From an uncultured Cohaesibacter sp. (GTDB taxonomy: Bacteria; Pseudomonadota; Alphaproteobacteria; Rhizobiales; Cohaesibacteraceae): a DNA stretch of 64,000 bases. The stretch lies in assembly GCF_963678225.1 (NCBI RefSeq), contig NZ_OY782764.1, positions 402,001 to 466,000 on the forward strand. The letters run 5' to 3'. Below are positions 2,866-44,185 of the stretch, in pieces. Position numbers and translations under genes: made by a program. How positions within the stretch are numbered: position 1 is the first letter of the stretch; the number at the start of each line of letters is the position of its first letter. The notes under the pieces were generated by a model, which was not told where the DNA came from, made no database searches, and saw nothing but the letters and a program-made list of their open reading frames with translations.

Positions 2866-4908
2866 ATGCCTTCCTGGTTACGTTGGTTATTCTACGCGAC
2901 GGGGGTCACTGTGGCACAAGTGGTGTATGGCGTTTGGGATGGGGTTGTTCATGATGCACGGCGCGATTTGCCCGGCAAGGACACGCCACTCGCAGCCTTG
3001 CGAAATTTCGACGAATTTGACGAGGGAAATGCAGTCCGTGCCTTTTTTGCGGACAGGGGCTTTTTCGTCTTTGATGAGAGCGTCAGTCTGGTCGACGGGC
3101 TTTTTCATTATATCAACAAGGCTGCAGAACAATCCTGCGGTGCCTGCACGCCCTGCCGCATGGGCACAGTGCTTATACGAGACGCGCTAGACAAGATGCG
3201 CCGCGGGCTGGATTCCCCGCTCGATTTCGATGATATCGAAATGCTGGCTGACCAAATGAAGGAAACCTCCCTTTGTGGTCTGGGACAGACCTGCTGCATC
3301 GCCCTGTTGGAGGTCATCCATCACTTCCGCGAGCAGATCGAAAAGGAAGTGGCCGATCATATGCCCATCCGCGCCCAGCATGGCATGGCCTATATGACAG
3401 CCCCCTGCATCGAGGCTTGCCCCTCCAAGGTCAATGTGCCGCGCTATATCGACTATATCCGCGATGGTAAACCGGAAAACTCACTGGGTGTGCTGCTTCA
3501 GAAATACCCCATGGCCGCCACCTGTGGCCGTGTCTGTGTGCGCTATTGCGAGCAGGCCTGCCGACGCAAATTCGTGGACGAGGCAGTGGGTATCAAAACC
3601 CTCAAGCGCTTTGTTGCGGACCAGCAGAAAGGGCCGCATGCCCTCAAATTCACTCGGGAAATGATCCAGAAGCCCCTCGCCGATGGCATGAAGGTCGCCG
3701 TCATTGGGGCCGGACCGGCGGGCATTTCCTGTGCCTATCATCTGCTGCTGCATGGCTATCATGTGGATGTGTTTGAAAAGCAGGATAAAGCCGGCGGCAT
3801 GGCCCAGATCGGCATACCGAATTATCGCCTGCCCAAAGATACCCTCGCCATGGAAACCGACATCATCGTTGATCTGGGGGGACGTTTCCTGTTTGGCCAG
3901 CAATTGGGAGCCGACTTCACCATCGACGATCTGTTCCAGCGCGGCTACAAGGCGGTCTTCCTTGGCCTTGGCTGTCAGGAAGGCACCATGTTGGGCCTCA
4001 AGAATGAAGAACAGGTGCGCGAAGGCTATTTCACCGGCATCGATTTCCTGCTCAAGGTACATGACCATGTGGATGGCATTAACACCTTCCAGCTCAAGGG
4101 CGATGTGGTGGTCGTGGGCGGTGGCAACGTTGCCATGGACTGCGTCCGCTCGGCAGTCCGCCTTGGTGCCGACAATGCTCACCTCATCTATCGCCGCACC
4201 CGCGATGCCATGCCCGCCGACACCGAAGAGGTGGAAGAGGCAGAGAAGGAAGATATCGACTTCCACACCCTCTGCACACCGACCCGCATTATCAGCGATA
4301 ATGGCAAGATTACCGGCATTGAACTGGTTGAGATGGAAGAAACCGAGCCGGACGAAAGCGGTCGCCGAAGCGTGCGCCCCATACCGGGCACGGAGCATGT
4401 CATGGCCTGCTCAACGGTCATTGCCGCCATCGGTCAGCAGGTGGAAAGTCAGGAACGCATTGCCGAGGAAGGCATCGACTTCAACCATTGGAAATGCGTG
4501 GAAGCGGACAAGTCCCTGACCACCTCCCGGCCTGGCGTCTTTGCCGGTGGGGACTGCGTTACCGGCCCCTCTACCCTCATCTACGCCATGTCGGCTGGGT
4601 TGAAGGCCGCACGCAGCATCGACGACTGGATCCAGTTCGGCACGCCGCGCTTCTTCAAGCGCTCTCGGATGCGCGAGCTGATCAACGAGAATGCCTTCCT
4701 CGCCAATGACGCCGTGGAAACGCCGGTGCGCAATGGCTATCGCGTGCATAATCCGGCGCTTGATCCGGATTTACGCAAGAAAATGTTCGGCGAAGTGGAA
4801 CAGACCATCAGTCTGGAAGACGCCTATACCGAGGCGCAACGCTGCATGCGCTGCTATCGCCTCTATTCCGTCATCACCAAGCATTCCATCCCCGAAGGAG
4901 CGGCTTGA
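2866..4908 (+). CDS. NuoF C-terminal domain fused to GltD-like NAD(P)H oxidoreductase, hydrogenase partner
   Basis: Predicted iron-sulfur flavoprotein that passes electrons between NAD(P)H and the adjacent [FeFe]-hydrogenase. Residues about 60-150 resemble the C-terminal iron-sulfur domain of the 51-kDa NADH dehydrogenase subunit: SCGACTPCRMG gives Cys91, 94 and 97, and SLCGLGQTC gives Cys137. From about 180 it matches the glutamate synthase small subunit: cysteines 181, 185, 220, 224, 228 and 232 for iron-sulfur clusters, FAD site GAGPAG (281-286), pyridine nucleotide site GGGNVAMD (418-425) with YRRTRDAMP after it, and a second FAD motif FAGGDC near the end. The first 50 residues are not recognised and the ribosome site is weak, so the start is uncertain. 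The stop is 3 bases before the hydrogenase start, indicating a two-gene operon. Confidence 0.88.
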   Translation: MPSWLRWLFYATGVTVAQVVYGVWDGVVHDARRDLPGKDTPLAALRNFDEFDEGNAVRAFFADRGFFVFDESVSLVDGLFHYINKAAEQSCGACTPCRMGTVLIRDALDKMRRGLDSPLDFDDIEMLADQMKETSLCGLGQTCCIALLEVIHHFREQIEKEVADHMPIRAQHGMAYMTAPCIEACPSKVNVPRYIDYIRDGKPENSLGVLLQKYPMAATCGRVCVRYCEQACRRKFVDEAVGIKTLKRFVADQQKGPHALKFTREMIQKPLADGMKVAVIGAGPAGISCAYHLLLHGYHVDVFEKQDKAGGMAQIGIPNYRLPKDTLAMETDIIVDLGGRFLFGQQLGADFTIDDLFQRGYKAVFLGLGCQEGTMLGLKNEEQVREGYFTGIDFLLKVHDHVDGINTFQLKGDVVVVGGGNVAMDCVRSAVRLGADNAHLIYRRTRDAMPADTEEVEEAEKEDIDFHTLCTPTRIISDNGKITGIELVEMEETEPDESGRRSVRPIPGTEHVMACSTVIAAIGQQVESQERIAEEGIDFNHWKCVEADKSLTTSRPGVFAGGDCVTGPSTLIYAMSAGLKAARSIDDWIQFGTPRFFKRSRMRELINENAFLANDAVETPVRNGYRVHNPALDPDLRKKMFGEVEQTISLEDAYTEAQRCMRCYRLYSVITKHSIPEGAA

Positions 4909-4911
4909 GCC

Positions 4912-6771
4912 ATGTGCACCACTGAGCCCATCAGCTATGCCGGACGCGATCCTGCCGAGGCAACCATCAAGCTTCAGATCAACAACAAACAATGCATGGC
5001 CTTTCCCAATGAGACCATCCTGTCCTGTGCGCGGCGCCACGATATCTATATTCCCACCCTGTGCGAACTGGATGATATCGATCACACGCCGGGCACATGC
5101 CGCGTCTGCGTCGTGGAAATCACCCATTCAAAACACAATGGCGCGCAGATCGTCACCTCTTGCAACACTCCGGTGCGTGAAGGGATGACCGTCCAGACAC
5201 GCTCCAAAAAGGCGCGCGACATGCAGAAGCTGCAGGTCGAACTACTCATGGCGGACCATCTGCAGGACTGCGCCACCTGCATCCGTCATGGTGATTGCGA
5301 ATTGCAGGACGTGGCCCAATATGTAGGCCTGACGGAAAACCGCTTCTTTGACCGGCTTCTGGCTGAGAGCCGCCCGGTGGACGAAGCCTCCACATCCATG
5401 ATTCGAGACATGCGCCGCTGTATCCGCTGTCAGCGCTGCGTTGCCATTTGTCGCGATCATCAGGGCATTGATGCCCTCGTCATGGAAGGCACTGGCAATG
5501 ACCGCGTCGTTGCCCTGCGCGATGGCACCGATCCTCTGAGCAATATCTGCGTCTCCTGCGGACAATGCGTTCTGGTCTGCCCCACCGGGGCGCTGGGCGA
5601 GAGAGACGAAATCGACAAGGCACTCGATTATATCTGTGATCCGGACATCACAACGGTGGTCCAGTTTGCGCCAGCCGTGCGCGTTGCCTTTGGCGAAGAA
5701 TTCGGCATGCCAGCGGGCACCAATGTGGAAGGCCAGGTGATTTCTGCCTGCCGCAAGATCGGCGTCGATATCGTGCTCGACACCAATTTCGCCGCTGACG
5801 TCGTCATCATGGAAGAAGGCACCGAGCTGCTCGGCCGCCTCAAGGAAGGCCGCAAGCCAACCTTTACCTCCTGCTGCCCGGCCTGGATCAATTTTGCCGA
5901 AACCCACTATCCCGATATCCTGCCCCTGCTGTCGTCAACCAAATCACCCCAACAGGTGCTTTCGACCATTGCCAAGGCTTACCTACCGGAAAAACAGGAT
6001 ATTGCCGCCGACAAGATCCGTGTCATCTCCATCATGCCCTGCATCGCCAAAAAAGACGAAGCAGCCCGCCCGCAATTGGGAGAGGCAGGCAAGCAGGATA
6101 CCGACGTCGTGCTGACCACCCGAGAATTCGCCCGCCTTTTGCGGCGCGAAGGGATCGACCTCAAGACCATCAAGCCTTCCAGCTTCGACAACCCGTATAT
6201 GAGTGAATATTCTGGCGCTGCCGCCATCTTCGGCACCACGGGCGGCGTCATGGAAGCAGCCGTGCGCACCATCTATTCTGTCGTCAACGGCAAGGAGCTC
6301 GACAAAGTGGAGCTTACCCAGCTACGTGGCTTTGAAGGGGTGCGCGAAGCAACAGTCAATCTGGGAGGCCCAATCGGCGAGGTCAAGGTGGCCATGGTCC
6401 ATGGGCTGGGTGACACGCGCAAACTGGTGGAAATGGTCCGCTCTGGTGAAGCCGATTATGACTTTATCGAGGTCATGGCCTGTCCGGGGGGCTGCGTCGA
6501 TGGCGGTGGCTCCCTGCGCTCCAAGAAAGCCTATCTGCCGCTGGCCATGGCGCGGCGGGAAACCATCTATAATGTCGACCGGAAAACCAACGTGCGCCAG
6601 TCACACAAGAATATGCAGATGCAGGCCCTTTACAGAGACTTTCTGCAAGCGCCAAACTCGGAAAAAGCCCATCACCTGCTGCATACGCACTATGAGGATC
6701 GCCGCAAGGACTTTCAGCATACGGTGAAGGAAATCTGGGACAATCTGTCCATGAGCTCGGTTCTCTATTAG
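4912..6771 (+). CDS. [FeFe]-hydrogenase catalytic subunit, NAD(P)-linked group A type
   Basis: Cytoplasmic hydrogenase catalysing reversible H2 formation or oxidation. The 619 residues contain, in order: a [2Fe-2S] domain (Cys51, 63, 66, 84), a His-Cys3 [4Fe-4S] site (His116, Cys120, 123, 129), two ferredoxin clusters (Cys170/173/176/180 and 213/216/219/223), and an H-cluster domain with all three signatures, TSCCPAW (319-325), MPCIAKKDEAAR (375-386) and EVMACPGGC (520-528). A C-terminal small-subunit-like stretch with LLHTHY follows. All H-cluster cysteines are present, so it should be catalytic if matured. Pairing with a GltD-like protein suggests the glutamate-synthase-linked group (A2 in the HydDB scheme). 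No hydE, hydF or hydG is in the window. This enzyme class is uncommon in alphaproteobacteria. Confidence 0.95.
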   Translation: MCTTEPISYAGRDPAEATIKLQINNKQCMAFPNETILSCARRHDIYIPTLCELDDIDHTPGTCRVCVVEITHSKHNGAQIVTSCNTPVREGMTVQTRSKKARDMQKLQVELLMADHLQDCATCIRHGDCELQDVAQYVGLTENRFFDRLLAESRPVDEASTSMIRDMRRCIRCQRCVAICRDHQGIDALVMEGTGNDRVVALRDGTDPLSNICVSCGQCVLVCPTGALGERDEIDKALDYICDPDITTVVQFAPAVRVAFGEEFGMPAGTNVEGQVISACRKIGVDIVLDTNFAADVVIMEEGTELLGRLKEGRKPTFTSCCPAWINFAETHYPDILPLLSSTKSPQQVLSTIAKAYLPEKQDIAADKIRVISIMPCIAKKDEAARPQLGEAGKQDTDVVLTTREFARLLRREGIDLKTIKPSSFDNPYMSEYSGAAAIFGTTGGVMEAAVRTIYSVVNGKELDKVELTQLRGFEGVREATVNLGGPIGEVKVAMVHGLGDTRKLVEMVRSGEADYDFIEVMACPGGCVDGGGSLRSKKAYLPLAMARRETIYNVDRKTNVRQSHKNMQMQALYRDFLQAPNSEKAHHLLHTHYEDRRKDFQHTVKEIWDNLSMSSVLY

Positions 6772-6811: not shown

Positions 6812-8011
6812 TCAGGGCAGGTCCGATCCCCGCTCCTGCAAGAGATCGACATTGAGCGGAATCCGACAGCTGATTTCAAGATTGCGGTTCGCATAGCCAA
6901 CTGTCCAGTCCCCCCCAAAAATCTGCAGAATATGCTCGGCCAACAGAAGACTGCCCGCGCGTTCAGTGCCAAACAGATAGGCCAGACTGATGGTACCGGA
7001 AACATCGAATTGCCGAATATCCTGTGCCTGATCTTCTACGGAGCCAAACTCGGAGATAAAGATATCAAGCGTCTCGGAGCCGAGTTCGTAACTCACAGCG
7101 ACATCAGAGCTTTCGCCCGAGTAGCGCACCGCTCCGCGCAGCAGAACAAACAGCAGCTCCCTTAGCAATCCCTCGTCGCTGAGAATGATAGAATCCGCCA
7201 CATGCTCGCAAAAGCTCAGAGTCTTGCCAAATTGCTCGGCTTCAAAGCGGCATTCCTCGACCACTTCGGTCAAGACGGTGCTGACATCAAACGGCTTGAG
7301 TTTGAGGGCACTCTCCTTGTTCAGCATCGATATGCCCACCCCGACATAGGACACTTCGTTACGCAGGGAGGCAATCCGTTCAAGTGCATCAGAAATCAGA
7401 CCTTCAGCCTCCTGTCCGCGTCCAGCCTTGAGCGCATCGAGGGCCAGAACCGCAAAACCGTGAGACTGATCGAGCCCGCCATTGATGTGCTTCAGCCATC
7501 CGCCAATCTTGTCCGCATCTAGCTGTTTCTGATGATAGTTCAATCGAGCGTTTGATGCGATCTGGGCTATGTTGCGCAGCATAAGCTCAAGGGTCTTGGC
7601 CGACAGCTCCTGCTTGGCCAAAAACATATCCGCACCGGATTTAAGGCTGACATCCTGAAAAGACGCGTCATCAAGCGACGACATGACAACGATCGTACCG
7701 GTATCGTCGCCTCCCTCTCTCAGAGAGGAGACAAGAGAAACAGAGGAATCCTCCCCCATCCAGTAGTCGAAAAGATAGAGATCAAAGTGACCGTCCGAGC
7801 AAAGCCGCTCGGCTTCTTTCAAACTGTCGGCAAAGGTGACATCAAACCGAAATCCTGTCAGCTGTTGCAGCAACCAATGCACATAGCGCCTGTCAATCGG
7901 ATCGTCATCCAGCAGAAGACAAGAGAGATGAACATCTTCTCCAGCGGCTTGAGATATCCGCTCGAGTTCGCTCGCCATTCCCTGAGAATGCTTCATCCAG
8001 GCCGCACACAT
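6812..8011 (-). CDS. Response-regulator receiver joined to a degenerate histidine-kinase-like module
   Basis: A 399-residue cytoplasmic signalling protein. Residues about 28-150 form a receiver: acidic LLLDDDPID, phospho-acceptor Asp82 in LFDYWMG and Lys in FLAKQEL. The rest has the layout of a kinase core, but the usual H-box is replaced by LKHINGGLDQ, the ATP-binding asparagine is lost (LLRGAVRY where LLxNAxKY is expected) and the DxGxG loop is not seen. It is therefore probably not an active kinase; it may act as a phospho-accepting scaffold. The start has a good site (GGGGGTTTC) upstream. It lies 58 bases after the gene at 8070-8759 on the same strand and likely shares its transcript. It converges with the hydrogenase gene. 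Confidence 0.75.
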   Translation of the reverse strand: MCAAWMKHSQGMASELERISQAAGEDVHLSCLLLDDDPIDRRYVHWLLQQLTGFRFDVTFADSLKEAERLCSDGHFDLYLFDYWMGEDSSVSLVSSLREGGDDTGTIVVMSSLDDASFQDVSLKSGADMFLAKQELSAKTLELMLRNIAQIASNARLNYHQKQLDADKIGGWLKHINGGLDQSHGFAVLALDALKAGRGQEAEGLISDALERIASLRNEVSYVGVGISMLNKESALKLKPFDVSTVLTEVVEECRFEAEQFGKTLSFCEHVADSIILSDEGLLRELLFVLLRGAVRYSGESSDVAVSYELGSETLDIFISEFGSVEDQAQDIRQFDVSGTISLAYLFGTERAGSLLLAEHILQIFGGDWTVGYANRNLEISCRIPLNVDLLQERGSDLP

Positions 8012-8069
8012 CTGAAACCCCCGTTGATCAGAATATCGGTCCAGAAGAGAATAGTTAAAAATCTGTAAA

Positions 8070-8759
8070 TCACAAACAGATATTCACCCTGAGCACATCT
8101 TCTCCGGTCGTCTCCATGTAAAGCCCCCATCCATGCCGAAGGCAAATCTCACTACACTCATGAAGCGAAAGAAGTTCAAACAGATCTCCAGATTTATACT
8201 GCGCAAACTCAATCAGCTGGAGTTTCTCCGGAAAATCAATGCTGCAAGGAGAGCAATCCAGACGAATATGAGCGGGAACCACCTCATCACGACAAACGGA
8301 AATAACCAGCTCTGCGACTTGATCTTTGGCAATAGCGAAGGAAATGCTTTTCAAGAGTCGCTGGATAAACTGCCGCAAAAACTGGGGATCAGCGACCATC
8401 GAAATCGGGCTTTCGCTTTTGAACAGAACTGTTTCAAATTGGAGTGATTCTATTTCCGCCGCCAGAACAGCCGTAAAATCGACATCCTGCGGTGCAAGGG
8501 GCTTGCACATGGCGTCAGAATAATCGCGCACAGCTTGTGTCACGTCGGCCAAATGTCTGGTCTTATCTTGCACCATCCCCAAAATGGCCAGCGCATCCTC
8601 ATCAAGCGAGCCAGCATTCTCAGCCAGAAAGATTTCGATCAACTGGGCAATCTGCCTGATGGGGGCCTTGGTGTCATGGGCAATCCGGCGGCTAAGCTCA
8701 TAGCGCGCTTTCATGTTCTGTTCGGAAGAGGATACACAGCCGTCCTTATTGGTCATCAC
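8070..8759 (-). CDS. Histidine-kinase-like dimerisation protein with degenerate ATPase domain
   Basis: A 229-residue soluble protein. The N-terminal helix pair keeps a phospho-acceptor box, RRIAHDTKAPIRQ (His28), and a second helix resembling HisKA dimerisation domains. The remaining ~120 residues fit the position of the ATP-binding domain but lack the N-box asparagine and any DxGxG or GxGLG loop. It may therefore act as a phosphotransfer protein rather than a kinase; this is inference. The start used is GTG at 8757-8759, with an ATG immediately following; GGGGGC lies upstream. It has no sensory or membrane segment. It is followed by the receiver/degenerate-kinase gene and is divergent from the CheB-CheR fusion gene. 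Confidence 0.65.
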   Translation of the reverse strand: MMTNKDGCVSSSEQNMKARYELSRRIAHDTKAPIRQIAQLIEIFLAENAGSLDEDALAILGMVQDKTRHLADVTQAVRDYSDAMCKPLAPQDVDFTAVLAAEIESLQFETVLFKSESPISMVADPQFLRQFIQRLLKSISFAIAKDQVAELVISVCRDEVVPAHIRLDCSPCSIDFPEKLQLIEFAQYKSGDLFELLSLHECSEICLRHGWGLYMETTGEDVLRVNICL

Positions 8760-8819
8760 AATAGCCCCCGATACCGTGAAAAATCAGCAACCAAACAACC
8801 TTAAGATGTATAGACATAT

Positions 8820-8844
8820 TTAACTATGGTTAATTTGATGTTAA
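8820..8844. promoter_or_regulatory. Candidate CtrA-binding site (TTAA-N7-TTAA) in the divergent promoter
   Basis: Three TTAA words stand in series, at 8820-8823, 8830-8833 and 8841-8844, with spacings of 6 and 7 bases. The last pair, TTAA-TTTGATG-TTAA, matches the consensus of the alphaproteobacterial cell-cycle/motility regulator CtrA. It sits in the 230-base gap between two divergent signalling genes. Binding is inferred from the consensus only. Confidence 0.5.
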
Positions 8845-8989
8845 TCTTCCCCCTAAGTTTCGGATATGTCTAGATAAAACTGATCCTTTATATTGATTAT
8901 AAAAGTCTTCAGTCAATGGATCATCAGCCGAGCGCAGGGCGACCTTGCATCGAGAACCGTGTTTTTCATTCCTTGGGGGAGGATTGATC

Positions 8990-11900
8990 ATGAGTAAAGA
9001 TACTGATTCCGAACAGCTTTCGGCGCCAACGGGCCAAGAAGCGCTCGAACCAAAGGAGCGGGACGAGGCAGCCCCTTCGGAAAACACCGAAGCAAATGCA
9101 TCCGAACAAATATCGCATGCGCCTTCAGAAGAAACAGTTCCGGACGATCCGCAAAAAGAGCCCCGTCAAACAGACAATCCGATTCGCATCGTTGCGATCG
9201 GCGCGTCAGCTGGCGGATTGGAGCCGATCGAGCAGTTTTTTGATGCCTTACCCACAGACCCCAATGTGGCATTTGTCATCATTCAACACCTCTCCCCCAA
9301 CTTTCAGTCGATGATGGATCAGTTGATCGCCCGCCACACGCATATGCGCATCGTCCATGCGCAAGATCAGATGGCAATCGAACCCAACGTCATTTATCTC
9401 AATCCGCCCCGAACCGAACTCCTGATAAAGAATGGCAAACTCTCGGCAACCGCCTATCCCGACAATGATATGCTGAGCCTGCCCATCGATGCCTTTTTCA
9501 CCTCTCTTGCCAAAGAGGAGGGCGAGCATGCCATCGGCATCGTCTTATCGGGAACAGGATCGGACAGTACCAGAGGCAGCTTGCAGATCGTGCAACATGG
9601 GGGCGTTGTCATCGCGCAAGACCCCTCCACGGCCAAGTTTGACTCAATGCCCCGAAAGGTCATCGACACCATCAACACGGCTTATGTTGCCGATGTGAAG
9701 GACATGCCGGAAATCCTCGCCGCGGTGATCAGTGGCTCAGAGGTTCCCCGCCCGGAACCGGAAGCCATAGATGCGGACAATCCTGAATCACGCATTCTGG
9801 CCATCTTGCAAAAATCCTACGGTACGGATTTCACCTTCTACAAGAACGCCACTATCCATCGCAGAATTCAGCGCCGCGCTTTGCTCAAGCGCGAGGCCAG
9901 CCTCGACAAATACTGCGAGAGCCTGCTGTTTGACAAAGAAGAGATGGACATTCTTTACTGCGACCTGCTGATTGGTGTCACCGAATTTTTCCGCGACAAG
10001 GAAGCCTTCGAAGCCCTCAAGTCAAAAGTTCTGCCAGAGCTCGTTGCAAATATGACGTCGGAAAGGCAAATCCGAATCTGGGTTCCCGGCTGCGCAACCG
10101 GTGAGGAGCCCTATTCCATCGCCATACTGGTGAGCGAAACCGCCAAGCGCAACGGCATCACGCCCAACCTCAAAATATTCGCAACCGACATCCATTTCAG
10201 ATCGCTCGAAATTGCGGCAGAAGGGAGCTACAACGCCGAGAGCGTTGCCCATATTCCAGAGACATTGCTCAAGACCTATTTTGATCTTGTCGACAACCGC
10301 TATCAGGTGAAGAAAAGCCTCCGGCGCAAGGTCGTCTTCTCGACACAAAATCTGCTCAAAGATCCACCCTTTACCAAGATAGATCTGATCACCTGTCGCA
10401 ATTTGCTGATTTACTTTAATGAGTTGGCCCAGCGCAAGGTGTTGTCGCTGTTCCATTTTGCCCTCAAGGAGAAAGGCCACCTCTTTCTGGGGTCAAGCGA
10501 GACCGTGGGTAATCTGGATCTAGAATTTGCCTCGGTCGACAAGAGATGGCGCATTTTCCAGAAGAAACGCAACAGCCAGATCCGCGATGCGGCCTTTTTG
10601 ATTCCCGCCTCGTCACGTTCAAAAGAGGGCGCGGAAAATGGCCTTTCCCTAAGAGAAACGCGGTCTCACAATCTAGCGGCAGCCAAAAAGGAAAGTCTCA
10701 CCCGCCAAGCCCTGTATGGCGCCTATGACAGACTGCTGGAACGGTATGCGCCGACAGGGTTCCTGATCAATGACCTTGGCGAATTGATGCATATCTTTGG
10801 CAATGCGGACAAATTCCTGCAGGTCCGCAAGGGGTTGTTCAGCAATCGCATCACGGATCTGGTGCAGGCTGATCTCAAACTCGCAATCACGTCCGGCATC
10901 GAACGCGCCATGACGACCAGCCACGAACCGGACTTCGAGCGCGCCGTCCAGATCAAGGATTCCGAAGACAATCTGACCCGCCTGACCATCAGGATTACCA
11001 AGATCCTGAATGTGGAAAGCCACAGCGTTTTCCTGCTAATCACATTGGAAGAGAGGAAATCCCCGCTTTCCGAGCGTACAATCAAAAACAGCAATGCGCC
11101 CATGCTGGAACATGAAGAGGTCTATGTCAGCCGGATTGCCGAACTGGAAAATGAGCTTCGCTCCACAGGAGAAAGCCTACAGACCACCATTGAAGAGCTG
11201 GAAACGAGCAATGAGGAACTGCAGGCAACAAACGAAGAACTGACCGCCTCCAACGAGGAACTGCAAAGCACCAACGAAGAACTGCATTCGGTCAACGAAG
11301 AGCTCTATACCGTCAGCGCCGAGCATCAGCGCAAAATTGTCGAACTGACCGAAATGACGGATGACATGGAGAATCTGCTGCGCAGCACGCAGATCGGGAC
11401 CATCTTTCTTGATGAAGAGGCAAAAATCCGTCGCTTCACACCAGCCTCGACAAAAGCCTTCAACCTGATGCCCCATGACGTAGGCCGCCCGATTGGCCAT
11501 GTCACCTGCCGCTTTGACAACACCGATTTGCTCACCCAAACGCTGGAAACAATCACCAGAGGCACCGAACATTCAAGAGAAGTCGAGTGCGACGGCGTCA
11601 TCTATCTGCTGAATATTTTGCCCTACAAGACAGAATTGGAAACCATCACCGGCGCCGTCATTACCGTGTTTGAAATTGATGAATTGAAGCGCGCGCAGGA
11701 GCGGGTGAGACAGGAACGCGAATTTTACAAGACCCTCGTCGATCTGCAGAGTGATCTCATCTGCCGCTTCAAACCTGACACAACCATAACCTACGCCAAC
11801 AGTGCCTTTCTTGCCTTTTTCAACATCACCCCAGACGCCATAAAGGGCACTCTATTCCAAAATCTGTTGAAGACGCCGCAAAAGGAAGATCTGGTCAATG

Positions 11901-13660
11901 CGATTGAAAATCTGGAACAGGATGTCCCCATTGAATGGGAGTTCGAACAAGCCGACAAGACCAGCAGATGGCTACAATGCCGCTTCAACATCCTGCGAGA
12001 CGAGCATGGAGCAATCTTCGAGATACAGGCGGTCTTGCACAATGTGACTGAGATTGTCGAACGGGAAAATCTGATCAGCGAGTTCAACCGCATAGCTGCG
12101 AACACCAATCTTGACCTCAACGACAAGATCGAACGTATTCTGACCCGCGTGTCAGAGGTTTCCCGGCTACCTGCTGCGCTGAAAATAAGCTTCGAAAATC
12201 AGCAGATCGAAGTCGACACCATTATCGGAATGAAAAAGGGCCGACTCTCAGTCGGGCAAACCTTTTCAACCCCTTGTGCGTCTTGCCATCATGCCCTGGC
12301 GTCTGACGAGGGGATACCCTATCGGGACTATTTCATCGACTGCATCGTCCGAACCACAGACATATTCCACTCCCAAGGCTATCAGACGGTCATTGGCGCA
12401 CCGACTATGAGCAATGGCGAGGCCAACGGAGCCATTCTCTTTGCCTCGAAATTCCCCATCAACAAAAGCTATCTTGAAAATTACCAGCCGATAGTCGACC
12501 GCATCGCCGACTGGATTGGCTATGAGTTGTTTCGCAGGGACCAGCAAGAGAAGCTGGAAATGCTCAACAACATGTTCATGGAAGAAGAAGAGCGCTTCCG
12601 CAAGCTCTATATGGAAACACCGGTCATTATGCATTCCCTCGACAAGGATGGCATTATCGTTGAGGCCAATGAAGAATGGCTCACAACGCTGGGCTACGAA
12701 CGCGAGGACGTCATCGGCCACCATTGGGAAGAATTCATGACGGAAGCCTCAACGCAATATGCCTATGAGGTGGTATTGCCCGAGACCACCAAGAACAAGC
12801 AGGCCGACAATGTGCCGTTCCAGATGGTTAAAAAGGACGGGGGCATCATAGATGTCGAAATGTCGACCATCATCGTCGCAGACGGCAAAGGCGTTGAGCA
12901 GACACGCACCGTGCTCGCCGATGTGTCCGACAGAGTCCGAGCGGAAAAGGAACTCGAAGCACACAATCAGGAACTCAAACTGATCAACGAGAATCTCAAC
13001 CAGTTCACTCATATCATCAGTCACGATTTGGCAGGCCCGCTTCGCGCCATCCAGCACACCGCGACATGGATCGAGGAAGATCTCGACGAAAATACCCAAA
13101 ACGAGATCCAGGAGCATATCGACCGACTAAAGGACCAGATTTCACATCTGGGCAGTCTGATCGCAGATCTGTCAGATTATTCCAAAGCCGGTTCTAATGT
13201 TCAGGAGGCCGAAGAAATCAATCTGACCGTCAATCTTCAGAGCATCTTCGATATCGTGGACGGCAGCGATGCCATCCGCTTTGAAACCAGCCTGCCACAG
13301 GAAAGCATTCACACCTACCGCGCGCCCCTGCTGCTCGTACTGCGCAACTTGATTGAAAACGCTATCAAATATCACGACAAGGACAATGGTATTGTGAAGG
13401 TCTGGCAGGAAGACCTGGGCGATGCATGGGCCTTTTCTGTCTCCGATGATGGACCGGGCATCGACCCCAAGCATCACGGCAAGATCCTGCTCCCCTTCAG
13501 GAAGCTGGAACGCAAGGACAAGGTTCCCGGAAACGGCATGGGTTTGGCATTGGTCAAGAAAGCCATTGAGTCCGTTGGCGGAACGTTGACAATCCTCTCG
13601 GATCCATCCATAGAGCCGGGGACGACATTTCGCTTTACCTGGCCCAAACAAGGAAAATAG
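8990..13660 (+). CDS. CheB-CheR-PAS-GAF-PAS histidine kinase fusion
   Basis: A 1556-residue soluble signalling protein. The start is the ATG at 8990, preceded by GGGGGAGG; a further upstream in-frame ATG at 8945 lacks such a site. After an acidic ~60-residue tail comes a CheB-like methylesterase domain (GASAGG with Ser73, His100 in IIQH, Asp192 in LSGTGSD). A CheR methyltransferase follows (about 270-530; CATGEEPYS near 367, [10 protein letters not shown] later). A long heptad-rich coil of repeated SNEELQxTNEEL units spans about 710-780. After it come PAS-type regions, a probable GAF domain, another PAS, a HisKA box [10 protein letters not shown] near 1343 and an intact ATPase ([24 protein letters not shown]). 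It lacks a CheB receiver domain. It likely links methylation-type chemistry to a kinase output; stimulus unknown. The neighbour receiver at 13678-14121 is a plausible partner. Confidence 0.9.
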
Positions 13661-13677
13661 CCTCCCGCAAACAGCAT

Positions 13678-14121
13678 TCAGGATGGCAAGCGGATGATCT
13701 CACAAAAATCGAACAGAAGCTGCATGGAGCGCGCCATCCTGGCAGGCTCCATTTCCTTGACGATATAGCCAGACGCAAAATGCTGATAGGCAAGATTGAC
13801 ATCTTCAGCCAGATTTGAGCTGGAGATGACAAAGATGATGCTGTCTCTCAAAGCGGCGTCAGCTCTGATTTCATCAAGAAATTCATAGCCAGACATGCCC
13901 GGCATGTTGAGATCGGACAAGATGACGAACGGTCGCTCGATCTCTCCCCTACGCAACATCTCCAGCGCCTCCGCCCCGTCGCGGGCATTGACAAGTGCGA
14001 TGTTACCACCATGCTTTGCCAGCGCACGCTTGACCAGAAAAACATCCGCCTGATCGTCTTCAACCAGCAACAGAGTCGCCTTGCTATCATCTTGTGAAGT
14101 CAATGGCTGGGTTTCTTTCAC
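13678..14121 (-). CDS. Single-domain response regulator (Rcp1-like receiver)
   Basis: A 147-residue stand-alone receiver with no output domain. It shows the acidic pair in LLLVEDDQAD, phospho-acceptor Asp70 in ILSDLNMPGMSG, a Ser/Thr switch position in FVISSS and the conserved Lys in YIVKEM. This family typically accepts phosphate from bacteriophytochrome-like or hybrid kinases. Its start overlaps the stop of the upstream kinase gene by four bases (ATGA), so the two are made together. It is convergent with, and 17 bases from, the CheB-CheR-kinase gene. Confidence 0.9.
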   Translation of the reverse strand: MKETQPLTSQDDSKATLLLVEDDQADVFLVKRALAKHGGNIALVNARDGAEALEMLRRGEIERPFVILSDLNMPGMSGYEFLDEIRADAALRDSIIFVISSSNLAEDVNLAYQHFASGYIVKEMEPARMARSMQLLFDFCEIIRLPS

Positions 14122-15338
14122 GCTTCATCTCGAGACAGACACAGGGAAACACAGGTTCCCTCACCCGGCGAGCTCTCTATCAAGACCTTGCCACCGTGGC
14201 CGTCCATAATTTTCTCAACGATCGGCAGCCCGAGTCCCGTTCCTTCCTGAGCCAACTCGGCTGAGGGTTGTACGCGTCCATAAGGTTTGCGTGCCAATTC
14301 GATCTCTTCGGGGCTCATTCCCGGTCCGTTATCCCTGACCGCTATGCAATAGCCATCCGATGTCGCAGCCAGTGACACATCAATCCGGCCATGTGCCGGG
14401 GTATATTTGATCGCATTGGACAGGAGGTTCACCAGCGCCTGGGTCATCAACGATCGGTGACAGTGCGCACAGAGTTTTTCTTGCTGCAAATGCACAGCAA
14501 GGTCTATCCCCTTGTCCGAAGCAAAGAACTGGACCAGTTCGACCGCTCTGGCGATCACCTCATCAAGATAGACATCTTCAAGCTGCTGTTTGACCGTTTC
14601 AAGCGCATTGCCATTCTGCAGCATCAGATTGTTGATGACTTCTAGCAGATGCAGACCGCCGGTATGAATTTTGGTAGCAAATTTTTGATATTCTTCAGGC
14701 ACTTGAAGATTGAGACTATTACCCAAAATCATTTCAGAATAGCCCAGTATGGCATTCAGAGGCGTGCGCAAATCATGCCCCATGGTGGCATAAAAGCGAT
14801 CCTTGGCTTCATTGGCCTTCTTGAGATTGTCTATGGTTTGTTGCAGCTGTTGTTCCAATCGATGGGTATGACGCGCGCTGCGAATGGTCGCCTCCAGCAA
14901 CACGGGCGTCAGCTGGCTTTTGTTGATGCAGTGTCGGGCCCCAGCCTTGAGCGCGATTTTCTGCACATCTTCGCCGGGCATCCCCGTCAGCAGAATGACA
15001 ACCGAATTGGAATTGATGTCCCCGATAGCATTGATCGCAGCCACCCCGGTTTCCATACCAACCCAGAAATCCACCAGTACGACATCATAATGCGTCTTTC
15101 TGGCGGCAATCACTGCATCGGAAACAGATGTCACCCAATCCAGATCCACCCTGTAGGAGTCCAGATAGAGAAGTGCCTTCTTGGTGATCAGGAAGTCGGT
15201 TTCGTCATCTTCCAGCACCAGCACGCGAAGCGTCTTTTCAAGTGGAAGTTGCTCTTCCGAGAACATATCGACAGAAGTAGCCTCACTTAATGCCTCACTC
15301 GATGGTACGCCCCCCAGATTCCATTCCTCCAAGTGCAT
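14118..15338 (-). CDS. Receiver-histidine kinase hybrid (REC-HisKA-HATPase)
   Basis: A 406-residue soluble kinase with an N-terminal receiver: acidic VLEDDETD, Asp90 in VLVDFWVG, Lys140 in CINKSQ. A short helix leads to a complete kinase core: H-box ATMGHDLRTPLNAI (His188), N-box LLSNAIKYTP, DNGPGM and GTGLGLPIVEK. Unlike the two degenerate relatives at 6812-8759, all catalytic motifs are intact. It has no membrane segment, so its input is probably phosphorylation of its own receiver by another kinase. The ATG has a GGGGG site upstream. A CtrA-like box lies 77 bases upstream of the start codon. Its last bases overlap the single-domain receiver, its likely target. Confidence 0.92.
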   Translation of the reverse strand: MHLEEWNLGGVPSSEALSEATSVDMFSEEQLPLEKTLRVLVLEDDETDFLITKKALLYLDSYRVDLDWVTSVSDAVIAARKTHYDVVLVDFWVGMETGVAAINAIGDINSNSVVILLTGMPGEDVQKIALKAGARHCINKSQLTPVLLEATIRSARHTHRLEQQLQQTIDNLKKANEAKDRFYATMGHDLRTPLNAILGYSEMILGNSLNLQVPEEYQKFATKIHTGGLHLLEVINNLMLQNGNALETVKQQLEDVYLDEVIARAVELVQFFASDKGIDLAVHLQQEKLCAHCHRSLMTQALVNLLSNAIKYTPAHGRIDVSLAATSDGYCIAVRDNGPGMSPEEIELARKPYGRVQPSAELAQEGTGLGLPIVEKIMDGHGGKVLIESSPGEGTCVSLCLSRDEA

Positions 15339-42675: not shown

Positions 42676-43959
42676 CTATTCGTTGAACACGCGCATCGAG
42701 AGATATCGTGCTTGCGCGGGCGCAGCAATCGACGTCTCGATCAGTTTGCGCTCACCCGGCCCGAGGCCCACATGGTCCGGTCCGATGGTCCATGAATAAA
42801 GCTCAAGACGCTCCTTGCCAAGGACGGAAAACTCCACAGAGGGAAGAATCACAGGTTCAGTGCCCGGATTGACCAGTTCCGTCTCGATAGCAAGCACTGG
42901 TGACCCGCTTTTCTGCTCAAGGCGCACATCAACCATCTCGATATCGACACCGACCACATTCACATTCATTCCAAACATGGAATAAAGAGAGGCAAGGTCC
43001 GGAATGCGTTTCACCCAAAATTGAGGCGCCATGAACAGAGCCCCCAACAAAATCATCGTGGTTGCAAGAGCAGCGCCACCCAGCACCCACTCCCTCTTCA
43101 CGGAACGGTTGACCCCGGCTCCCCCCTTTTGTTTTTTGTTTTTCGCCTTTCGACGTCGGCGGCGTGCCCGGGCTTCTGTTCCGCCGCGCGCGACTTTCTT
43201 TTGCGCTTCAAAAGCAGCGGCATCCAGAAGATCGACCACAGGAGGCTGGAAGTCGTCCCCGCCGTCCCCCTTCACCACAAAGGGCTTTGAAGCCCCATCA
43301 TCAGAAGTGGCGTCGTCCGACCCGGCCTCAGGCTCTCCTGCGGACGAAGCCTCGGCTTTCTGAGCTTTTTCCGCCTTGCCAGCAGGCTCATCAAACAGGG
43401 AATCGATATCGTCCTGGCTCTGCTCCTCGCCCCCTGAGGGGCTATCGAACAGGGCGTCGATATCATCCTGACTTTGCTCTTCACCGCCGGAAGGGCTGTC
43501 AAACAGCGCGTCGATATCGTCCTGACTTTGCTCTTCACCGCCGGAAGGGCTGTCAAACAGCGCGTCGATATCATCCTGGCTTTGTTCCTCGCCACCAGAC
43601 GGGCTGTCAAACAGAGCATCGATATCGTCCTGACTTTGCTCTTCACCACCTGAGGGGCTGTCGAACAACGCGTCAATATCATCCTGACTTTGCTCTTTGC
43701 CGGCGGAGGGGCTGTCGAACAACGCGTCAATATCGTCCTGACTTTGTTCCTTTCCTGCATCTGGCTGCGGCTCGGGCTCTTTTGCCGCTGGCTTTGGGGC
43801 TGGTTTGAGGTCAGGTGCCTTTTCAGGCTTCGGTTCAGGGGTCTGTTCCGCATGCCAAGTTTCCCCGCAACTGGAACAACGCACGGACCGCCCTTCAGCG
43901 CCGATATAATCATCGGGGACCTGATAGCTTGTCGCACAATTTGGGCAGGTTATCTTCAT
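42676..43959 (-). CDS. MJ0042-type zinc-ribbon membrane protein with seven SQDDIDALF repeats
   Basis: A 427-residue protein. The N-terminus is a zinc ribbon: MKITCPNC with Cys5, Cys8, then RCSSCGETWHA with Cys28 and Cys31. A proline/lysine-rich linker leads to seven tandem 18-residue repeats (about 68-193) of the form GGEEQSQDDIDALFDSPS. An acidic stretch, a basic RRRRRKAKNKK segment and one membrane helix (around 285-310) follow. The last ~120 residues form a beta-rich DUF3426-type domain. The start is the ATG at 43957-43959; upstream in-frame residues are not family-like. Such zinc-ribbon proteins commonly sit between hpt and ftsE. Function unknown; the repeat resembles the FliM N-terminal CheY-binding peptide. 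Confidence 0.85.
   Translation of the reverse strand: MKITCPNCATSYQVPDDYIGAEGRSVRCSSCGETWHAEQTPEPKPEKAPDLKPAPKPAAKEPEPQPDAGKEQSQDDIDALFDSPSAGKEQSQDDIDALFDSPSGGEEQSQDDIDALFDSPSGGEEQSQDDIDALFDSPSGGEEQSQDDIDALFDSPSGGEEQSQDDIDALFDSPSGGEEQSQDDIDSLFDEPAGKAEKAQKAEASSAGEPEAGSDDATSDDGASKPFVVKGDGGDDFQPPVVDLLDAAAFEAQKKVARGGTEARARRRRRKAKNKKQKGGAGVNRSVKREWVLGGAALATTMILLGALFMAPQFWVKRIPDLASLYSMFGMNVNVVGVDIEMVDVRLEQKSGSPVLAIETELVNPGTEPVILPSVEFSVLGKERLELYSWTIGPDHVGLGPGERKLIETSIAAPAQARYLSMRVFNE
43381..43758 (-). repeat. Seven-copy 54-base tandem repeat inside the zinc-ribbon gene
   Basis: Seven in-frame units of 54 bases, each containing GATATC or AATATC followed by (G/A)TCCTG on the plus strand at exact 54-base steps (43405, 43459, 43513 and so on). 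The fifth and sixth units are almost identical in DNA, pointing to recent duplication, while the outer units have diverged (KEQ instead of EEQ, ending DEPA). Confidence 0.97.
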
Positions 43960-44185
43960 CGGTGCTTCAACACTGCAAAGGAATGGGTATAAGCGGCTCC
44001 CCGCCTTTTGACGCCCACATTCTAGACAAAGCATTGAAAGGAGGCGAATCATCCACAACATAGGATATCAGCCATTAAGGCTTTGCCAAGCCCCGCTCAA
44101 AGATCAATGATTGTGTATAGTTATCGGGTGAATCGGGACACCAAATCATGCAAGCTGCCATCAAACGACCAGAAGGAAGATCATA

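Follow-up and report, generated by a model that had tools for sequence, protein, structure and literature searches.

The stretch of DNA analysed here (the window; 64,000 nucleotides, G000:C2:402001-466000) belongs to an uncultured Cohaesibacter sp., the genome of which is assembled in two contigs (4.94 Mb, 99.74% complete). Near its start lie two adjacent genes on the forward strand, a gltD-type flavoprotein gene (2866-4908, 680 residues) and hydA (4912-6771, 619 residues), the latter encoding the catalytic subunit of a group-A [FeFe]-hydrogenase and being the only match to PF02906 in the host genome. Both open reading frames have the coordinates given in a preliminary description of this DNA, which had also stated that the maturase genes hydE, hydF and hydG are not in the window. 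This holds, and it extends to the entire assembly, in which model searches for HydE, HydF and HydG returned no match over cut-off.

HydA reaches 520.7 bits against TIGR02512 (group-A [FeFe]-hydrogenase), above the curated cut-off of 405.95, and 300.5 bits against PF02906, and it further contains Fer2_4, NADH-G_4Fe-4S_3, Fer4-type and Fe_hyd_SSU domains, by which the earlier designation as a group-A catalytic subunit is confirmed. Comparison with solved chains (the nearest being HydA1 of 8a6t and 7q4v) and with alignments places the H-cluster motifs on the forward strand at 5866-5886 (L1, TSCCPAW, with C299 and C300 in CpI numbering), 6034-6069 (L2, MPCIAKKDEAAR, with M353, C355, K358 and E361) and 6469-6495 (L3, EVMACPGGC, with M497, C499 and C503). 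These motifs, the four H-cluster cysteines and the Cys, Glu and Ser of the proton relay, which the sequence definition of group A asks for, are all present. Invariant in a 10-sequence alignment are also C51, C63, C66 and C84; H116, C120, C123 and C129; C170, C173, C176 and C180; and C213, C216, C219 and C223, which we take to belong, set by set, to the individual accessory clusters. The three motifs and the accessory-cluster cysteines, reported as intact in the preliminary description, are thus all found in HydA. The protein is 98% identical to that of Cohaesibacter marisflavi and 99.5% identical to that of the closest congeneric genome (G288), and relatives of 65-98% identity occur in Cohaesibacter, Rhodovulum, Tropicimonas, Rhodobium, Rhodopseudomonas, Aliiruegeria, Pleomorphomonas, Rhodoplanes, Blastochloris, Magnetospirillum and Rhizomicrobium, so that the supposed rarity of the enzyme in alphaproteobacteria is not borne out.

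With respect to its class, HydA shares its cluster domains with the bifurcating or NADH-dependent HydABC enzymes (A3; A6 in NF040763), of which 8a6t, 7q4v and 7p5h are solved relatives. It differs from these in that no NuoE-type subunit and no NuoF-type subunit with a flavin mononucleotide (FMN) domain adjoins it in the operon, which bifurcating HydABC would require, while its score against NF040763 (NADH-dependent group A6; 720.3 bits) is under the curated cut-off of 765. The A2-like layout that had been proposed agrees in part with the gene-neighbour rule of HydDB (PMC5037454): as in the putative, glutamate synthase-linked group A2, HydA is accompanied by a GltD-type partner without the NuoF FMN domain. 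However, the rule asks for an adjacent downstream GltD-type protein lacking a NuoF domain, whereas here the partner lies upstream and has the C-terminal cluster domain of NuoF (PF10589); the enzyme also differs from the A2 description in forming two clades without HydEFG and in often having an importer nearby. The role of group A2 itself is given as undetermined in PMC5037454, and PMC6776011 calls it functionally unresolved.

The partner combines PF10589 (residues 82-160), PF14691 (169-255) and Pyr_redox_2 (275-578), with no NuoF FMN domain listed by the domain search over its 680 residues, which confirms the fusion of a NuoF tail with GltD seen earlier. Its true start is more probably the GTG at 2911 than the ATG at 2866, since comparison with orthologues favours the former. 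The best solved match is NfnA 9n5u, and the best solved relatives are NfnB-type subunits (9n5u, 9bov, 8oh5 and 5jca; such subunits occur in Nfn and StnABC-type complexes), which like the partner have Fer4_20 and flavin adenine dinucleotide (FAD)/NAD(P) domains but join other catalytic subunits, whereas the partner joins HydA. Its second Rossmann fold holds a YRR motif, common to NfnA 9n5u, and because this motif is presumably a marker of NADPH, use of NADPH by the partner is suggested. A coupling of the HydA-partner pair to NADPH seems plausible. A fused gltD-hydA gene was found in none of the 78 loci checked, as the two genes are in different frames (Rhodoplanes, Rhodovulum sp. PH10 and L091) or, in loci with a shared frame (L094, L099, L100 and L119), a stop lies just inside the match.

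An active [FeFe]-hydrogenase is held to require HydE, HydF and HydG. The preliminary description had proposed a genome search for their genes and considered that their absence, together with a lack of H2 turnover, would count against its reading; the absence is what the search returned, and the joint presence of all three in one genome, the functional criterion for such an enzyme, is not found in the window's host. Divergent forms were considered as well and rejected. By eye, the weak matches to HydE and HydG (C2:3278-3280 kb) correspond to a CofH/CofG-like pair with a CofD-like gene after it, and nine weak HydF matches in frames of 254-1006 residues are presumably other GTPases. The CofH/CofG-like pair and CofD-like gene (L002, G000:C2:3277734-3281519; named by eye) point to F420 synthesis.

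The absence is shared by many relatives. Of 124 confirmed HydA loci 80 were kept, 30 of which (mostly from metagenome-assembled genomes, MAGs) fall outside the maturase searches, as do L050 and L118. The HydG model was run on 71 genomes (31 over cut-off), and those for HydF, HydE and Fe_hyd_lg_C on 65, of which 61 contain Fe_hyd_lg_C and four (G119, G239, G273 and G044) were relatives included for their lack of HydA. Among the 61 HydA-bearing genomes, one and the same set of 27 exceeds the cut-offs for HydE and HydF, and 25 of these 27 also that for HydG (G341 reaches 210 bits and G343 gives a weak match only), while the remaining 34 have no match over cut-off to any of the three. After removal of duplicates (G149/G298 and G060/G308) these 34 handles represent 32 distinct genomes. 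Maturases could have been overlooked if they were encoded on a plasmid since lost, fell into a gap of the assembly or had diverged beyond the reach of the models, and many of the assemblies are indeed drafts and strains can lose plasmids. However, all three are absent together in 34 genomes, one-contig assemblies (G288, G175, G219 and G197) among them, and the same models do find HydE and HydF, mostly with HydG, in all other Fe_hyd_lg_C genomes, so that oversight is a very improbable explanation. Two further genomic observations concern the same domain: a second Fe_hyd_lg_C protein is encoded in Blastochloris sulfoviridis G321 (L221 7601-9532) and in the Tropicimonas MAG G305 (L222 1499-3604), and neither genome has a HydEFG match over cut-off.

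A quick maximum-likelihood tree for hydA (96 rows, midpoint root, some forks unresolved) places the 32 maturase-less rows in two supported clades and a singleton, the MAG L091. Clade I comprises 27 rows (Shimodaira-Hasegawa-like approximate likelihood ratio test, SH-aLRT, 100), of which 24 are maturase-less and three of unknown status (L050, L053 and L118); clade II comprises seven (SH-aLRT 100), namely Blastochloris, a Xanthobacteraceae strain, Rhodovulum sp. PH10 and four Rhodoplanes. Maturase status changes at minimum 3 times on this tree, versus 21.7 times with shuffled labels. Because each clade joins a maturase-bearing group, clade I with Pleomorphomonas and kin (node 96) and clade II with Rhizomicrobium and kin (node 89), two or three losses of the maturases would fit the quick midpoint-rooted tree. 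Maturases in Pleomorphomonas and kin are also reported in PMC4967309. Inside clade I, Rhodobium clusters with part of the Cohaesibacter rows (93), and Rhodopseudomonas falls among Rhodovulum (97), and this mixing of genera suggests that hydA may have moved between maturase-less hosts.

Decay of the gene was considered and rejected, given its substitution rates and the invariance of the pocket. The ratio of non-synonymous to synonymous substitution rates (dN/dS) is 0.023-0.101 in 11 clade-I pairs (the four with dS > 0.8 being less sure), compared to 0.044-0.140 in seven pairs of maturase-bearing groups, two of all pairs including a partner outside the maturase tests (L118 and L079); maturase-less hydA is under purifying selection. 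In all 32 maturase-less HydA the residues C299, C300, C355, C499, C503, E279, E282 and S319 are kept, as are M353, K358, M497, Q325, F417 and others. Among 18 non-ligand residues of the pocket and proton path, a list drawn up from the CpI literature, 17 are invariant in the maturase-less rows, compared to 138 of the 301 columns of the domain (p = 1e-5 by a hypergeometric test, assuming independent columns, a value that alone does not show H2 chemistry); in maturase-bearing rows these figures are 16 of 18 and 81 of 301.

The domains, the intact motifs, the missing maturases, the purifying selection and the recurring importer described below are observed. The explanation that we favour, tentatively and with a probability short of even, is that of a working hydrogenase whose 2Fe subcluster comes by a HydEFG-independent route inside the cell. 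The products of the gltD-type gene and hydA would form a soluble complex, in which NADP(H) (by preference, it seems, NADPH) would react at the FAD of the GltD-type subunit and electrons would pass via iron-sulfur clusters to the H-cluster site, where H2 would be evolved or oxidised, presumably under low oxygen. We infer the intracellular route to the 2Fe subcluster, whatever its nature, because maturases were not found while the H-cluster pocket is strictly kept. Several points weigh against this explanation. We know of no alternative route to the 2Fe subcluster, and the [NiFe] pathway is no general substitute, since 10 of the 34 maturase-less genomes yield no match (E <= 1e-50) to HypF, a possible source of the cyanide (CN) ligands, for which reason the Hyp proteins were dropped as a replacement for HydEFG. 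Furthermore, one of the 18 pocket positions, R286, does vary in the maturase-less rows, the two Rhodoplanes pairs have a somewhat relaxed look (dN/dS 0.166 and 0.214), and conservation proves selection, not H2 chemistry. Earlier work on Rhodospirillum rubrum, where the maturases are likewise wanting, judged such a HydA probably inactive or employed in a different role (reported in PMC4967309).

The main rival, and a considerable possibility in itself although on the doubtful side, is that HydA holds the [4Fe-4S] part only and serves as an NADPH-linked iron-sulfur redox enzyme with another acceptor rather than as a hydrogenase; the importer described below would then bring the substrate of the enzyme or another factor. 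The absence of maturases over cut-off in the host and its relatives speaks for such a role. The invariance of the proton-transfer and 2Fe-site residues in two clades and the singleton counts against it, because a new role should have freed some of them.

Divergent from gltD-hydA, on the reverse strand, the window starts with an ATP-binding cassette (ABC) importer (1-2420), which the preliminary description missed and which is a recurrent neighbour of hydA. It consists of a periplasmic substrate-binding protein (SBP) of the twin-arginine translocation (Tat) type (1344-2420; PF12974, PF13379 and PF09084, i.e. SsuA/NMT1/phosphonate-binding type), a permease (543-1340; PF00528) and an ATPase (1-586; PF00005), the gene of which (G000:C2:401810-402586; L182:13810-14586) extends past the window edge. 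The twin-arginine RR of the SBP is invariant in 20 aligned sequences. Against TIGR01728 (SsuA, sulfonate-binding) the SBP scores 42.3 bits, below the curated cut-off of 163.5, and the ATPase is TauB-like (187.8 bits, also below cut-off). The best NCBIfam match of the permease is SaoP (76 bits versus a cut-off of 295) of the operon termed 'Sec-assisted organometallic' (PMC13188914); this resemblance is only a hint. The predicted SBP model (mean predicted local distance difference test, pLDDT, 86) has a fold resembling SsuA, TauA, PqqT and Thi5, and no substrate can be assigned from sequence or fold, because binders of sulfonate, nitrate, pyrimidine, pyrroloquinoline quinone (PQQ) and thiamin all match at low identity.

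The importer is divergent from gltD-hydA in the window, C. marisflavi, Rhodobium and Pleomorphomonas, while in L045, L046, L047, L050, L057 and L089 the SBP follows within 100 bases after hydA on the same strand, with the permease next. Of the 24 maturase-less loci, 18 (L074, L091 and each of the 16 from clade I) have SBP and permease close to hydA, versus 6 of 24 maturase-bearing ones, all six Pleomorphomonas, with some of the flanking stretches ending early at contig ends. In a survey of the order (297 genomes sampled, 19 of them HydA-bearing as counted by near full-length matches), an SBP of at least 54% identity occurs in 13 genomes, all with HydA (13/19 versus 0/278 without), and 14 other genomes carry paralogues of 35-40% only. 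In a whole-genome check of 33 genomes, six of the seven clade-II genomes were found to have an SBP of 44-53%: that of the Xanthobacteraceae strain adjoins hydA, and those of the other five (46-53%) lie elsewhere. Those of PH10 and two Rhodoplanes group with the hydA-linked SBPs in the SBP tree (99/98), whereas the closest SBPs of Blastochloris (36-39%) and of L091's genome (37%, beside hydA) fall outside that clade. The same check found no SBP match in the clade-I genomes G084 and G197, where HydA is present, nor in 18 maturase-bearing genomes other than Pleomorphomonas oryzae; among maturase-bearing genomes in the order survey, G165 has no SBP and G282 and G266 only one of 35-40%. In total 21 maturase-bearing rows outside Pleomorphomonas lack a hydA-type SBP (at least 44% identity), G203 and G313 being one genome. 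Among 59 tabulated rows, 28 of the 32 without maturases have the SBP, versus 6 of the 27 with them (Fisher p = 7e-7, uncorrected for kinship). Once kinship is taken into account the association is no longer significant, because there are only 2-3 independent tree contrasts, with which a sign test is powerless.

This distribution raises the possibility that the 2Fe cofactor or a precursor is salvaged from neighbouring microbes through a dedicated Tat/SsuA-type ABC importer, which in clade I lies beside hydA. The enrichment near maturase-less hydA, the confinement of the closer SBPs to HydA-bearing genomes, their presence elsewhere in five of the six clade-II genomes without one beside hydA (with hydA-linked affinity in the three of these five that are in the tree) and the lack of such SBPs in maturase-bearing genomes outside Pleomorphomonas all agree with salvage, as may the likeness of the SBP model to proteins such as PqqT, which binds the cofactor PQQ; by analogy, some bacteria scavenge other cofactors. 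However, G084 and G197 have HydA without the SBP, Pleomorphomonas carries importer and maturases together, Blastochloris and L091's genome have only the distant SBPs, the importer is not beside hydA in Rhodoplanes and PH10, the statistical association does not survive correction, and to our knowledge there is no natural extracellular 2Fe complex. Salvage is unlikely, even though a synthetic 2Fe complex fed to living Escherichia coli or Synechocystis activates HydA made without maturases (PMC6984386). Paralogous importers occur in clusters of anoxia or nitric-oxide genes, near genes read by eye as NnrS, UbiU/UbiV-type, an FNR/CRP-type regulator and a TonB receptor, which counts in favour of HydA as a [4Fe-4S]-only redox enzyme, and because of such neighbours the importer may just as well have an ordinary role in anoxic life.

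Several neighbourhoods of the importer and of hydA are worth recording, the genes in them being mostly named by eye. In PH10 and Rhodoplanes (L225, L226, L228 and L229) a related importer is divergent beside ribE-like and mostly ribH-like genes, and in L227 an NnrS-like gene adjoins the importer ATPase. In the Xanthobacteraceae strain (L074 11806-17023) an NnrS-like gene and a TonB receptor lie between hydA and the SBP, and in Blastochloris (L078 1635-2858) a radical SAM/SPASM protein and another ABC transporter are encoded upstream of gltD-hydA; as a common hydA neighbour the radical SAM/SPASM gene was dropped, as five other loci, compared by eye only, have none like it. Neighbour genes across loci were identified with a codon-position filter on open reading frames plus tblastn.

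Within the window, the divergent intergenic region (2421-2910) is AT-rich by eye and contains promoter-like hexamers. An FNR box upstream of the gltD-type gene was dropped, since none of 42 FNR-box-like matches lies between 2421 and 2910. Downstream of hydA there is a run of sensor-kinase and response-regulator genes (6812-15338), in which matches to the first two are confined to L043 and L044 (Cohaesibacter), and those to the third extend, at 28-32%, to L046, L050 and L051. Farther away, a 461-residue protein (42676-44061, reverse strand) contains about 6.6 copies of an 18-residue unit like GGEEQSQDDIDALFDSPS (54-base period, repeats at 43391-43746), which we would liken to the EIDALL-type peptide of FliM.

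The literature search, which left out most subscription papers, found no publication on the maturase-less clades or the importer link, and for that reason is weak evidence of novelty. The HydA of R. rubrum (PMC4967309; compared by print only) is likewise alphaproteobacterial and maturase-less, and in the available text is the sole organism of this kind named, to which the extent of the clades, the active-site test and the importer are added here. In 32 distinct genomes, out of 61 handles tested, an enzyme under strong selection has its active site untouched and no maturase genes. The [FeFe]-hydrogenase is thus intact and selected in lineages from which HydEFG were lost or were absent all along. 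This leaves two options: the H-cluster is made or acquired in a second way, or a hydrogenase site in perfect order has another function. Since the carriers include cultured phototrophs (Rhodopseudomonas and Rhodovulum), the question is open to testing, for which the linked importer would be the first candidate, and it is of relevance to eukaryotes, too, among them Entamoeba, listed with HydA and no maturases in Table 1 of PMC4967309.

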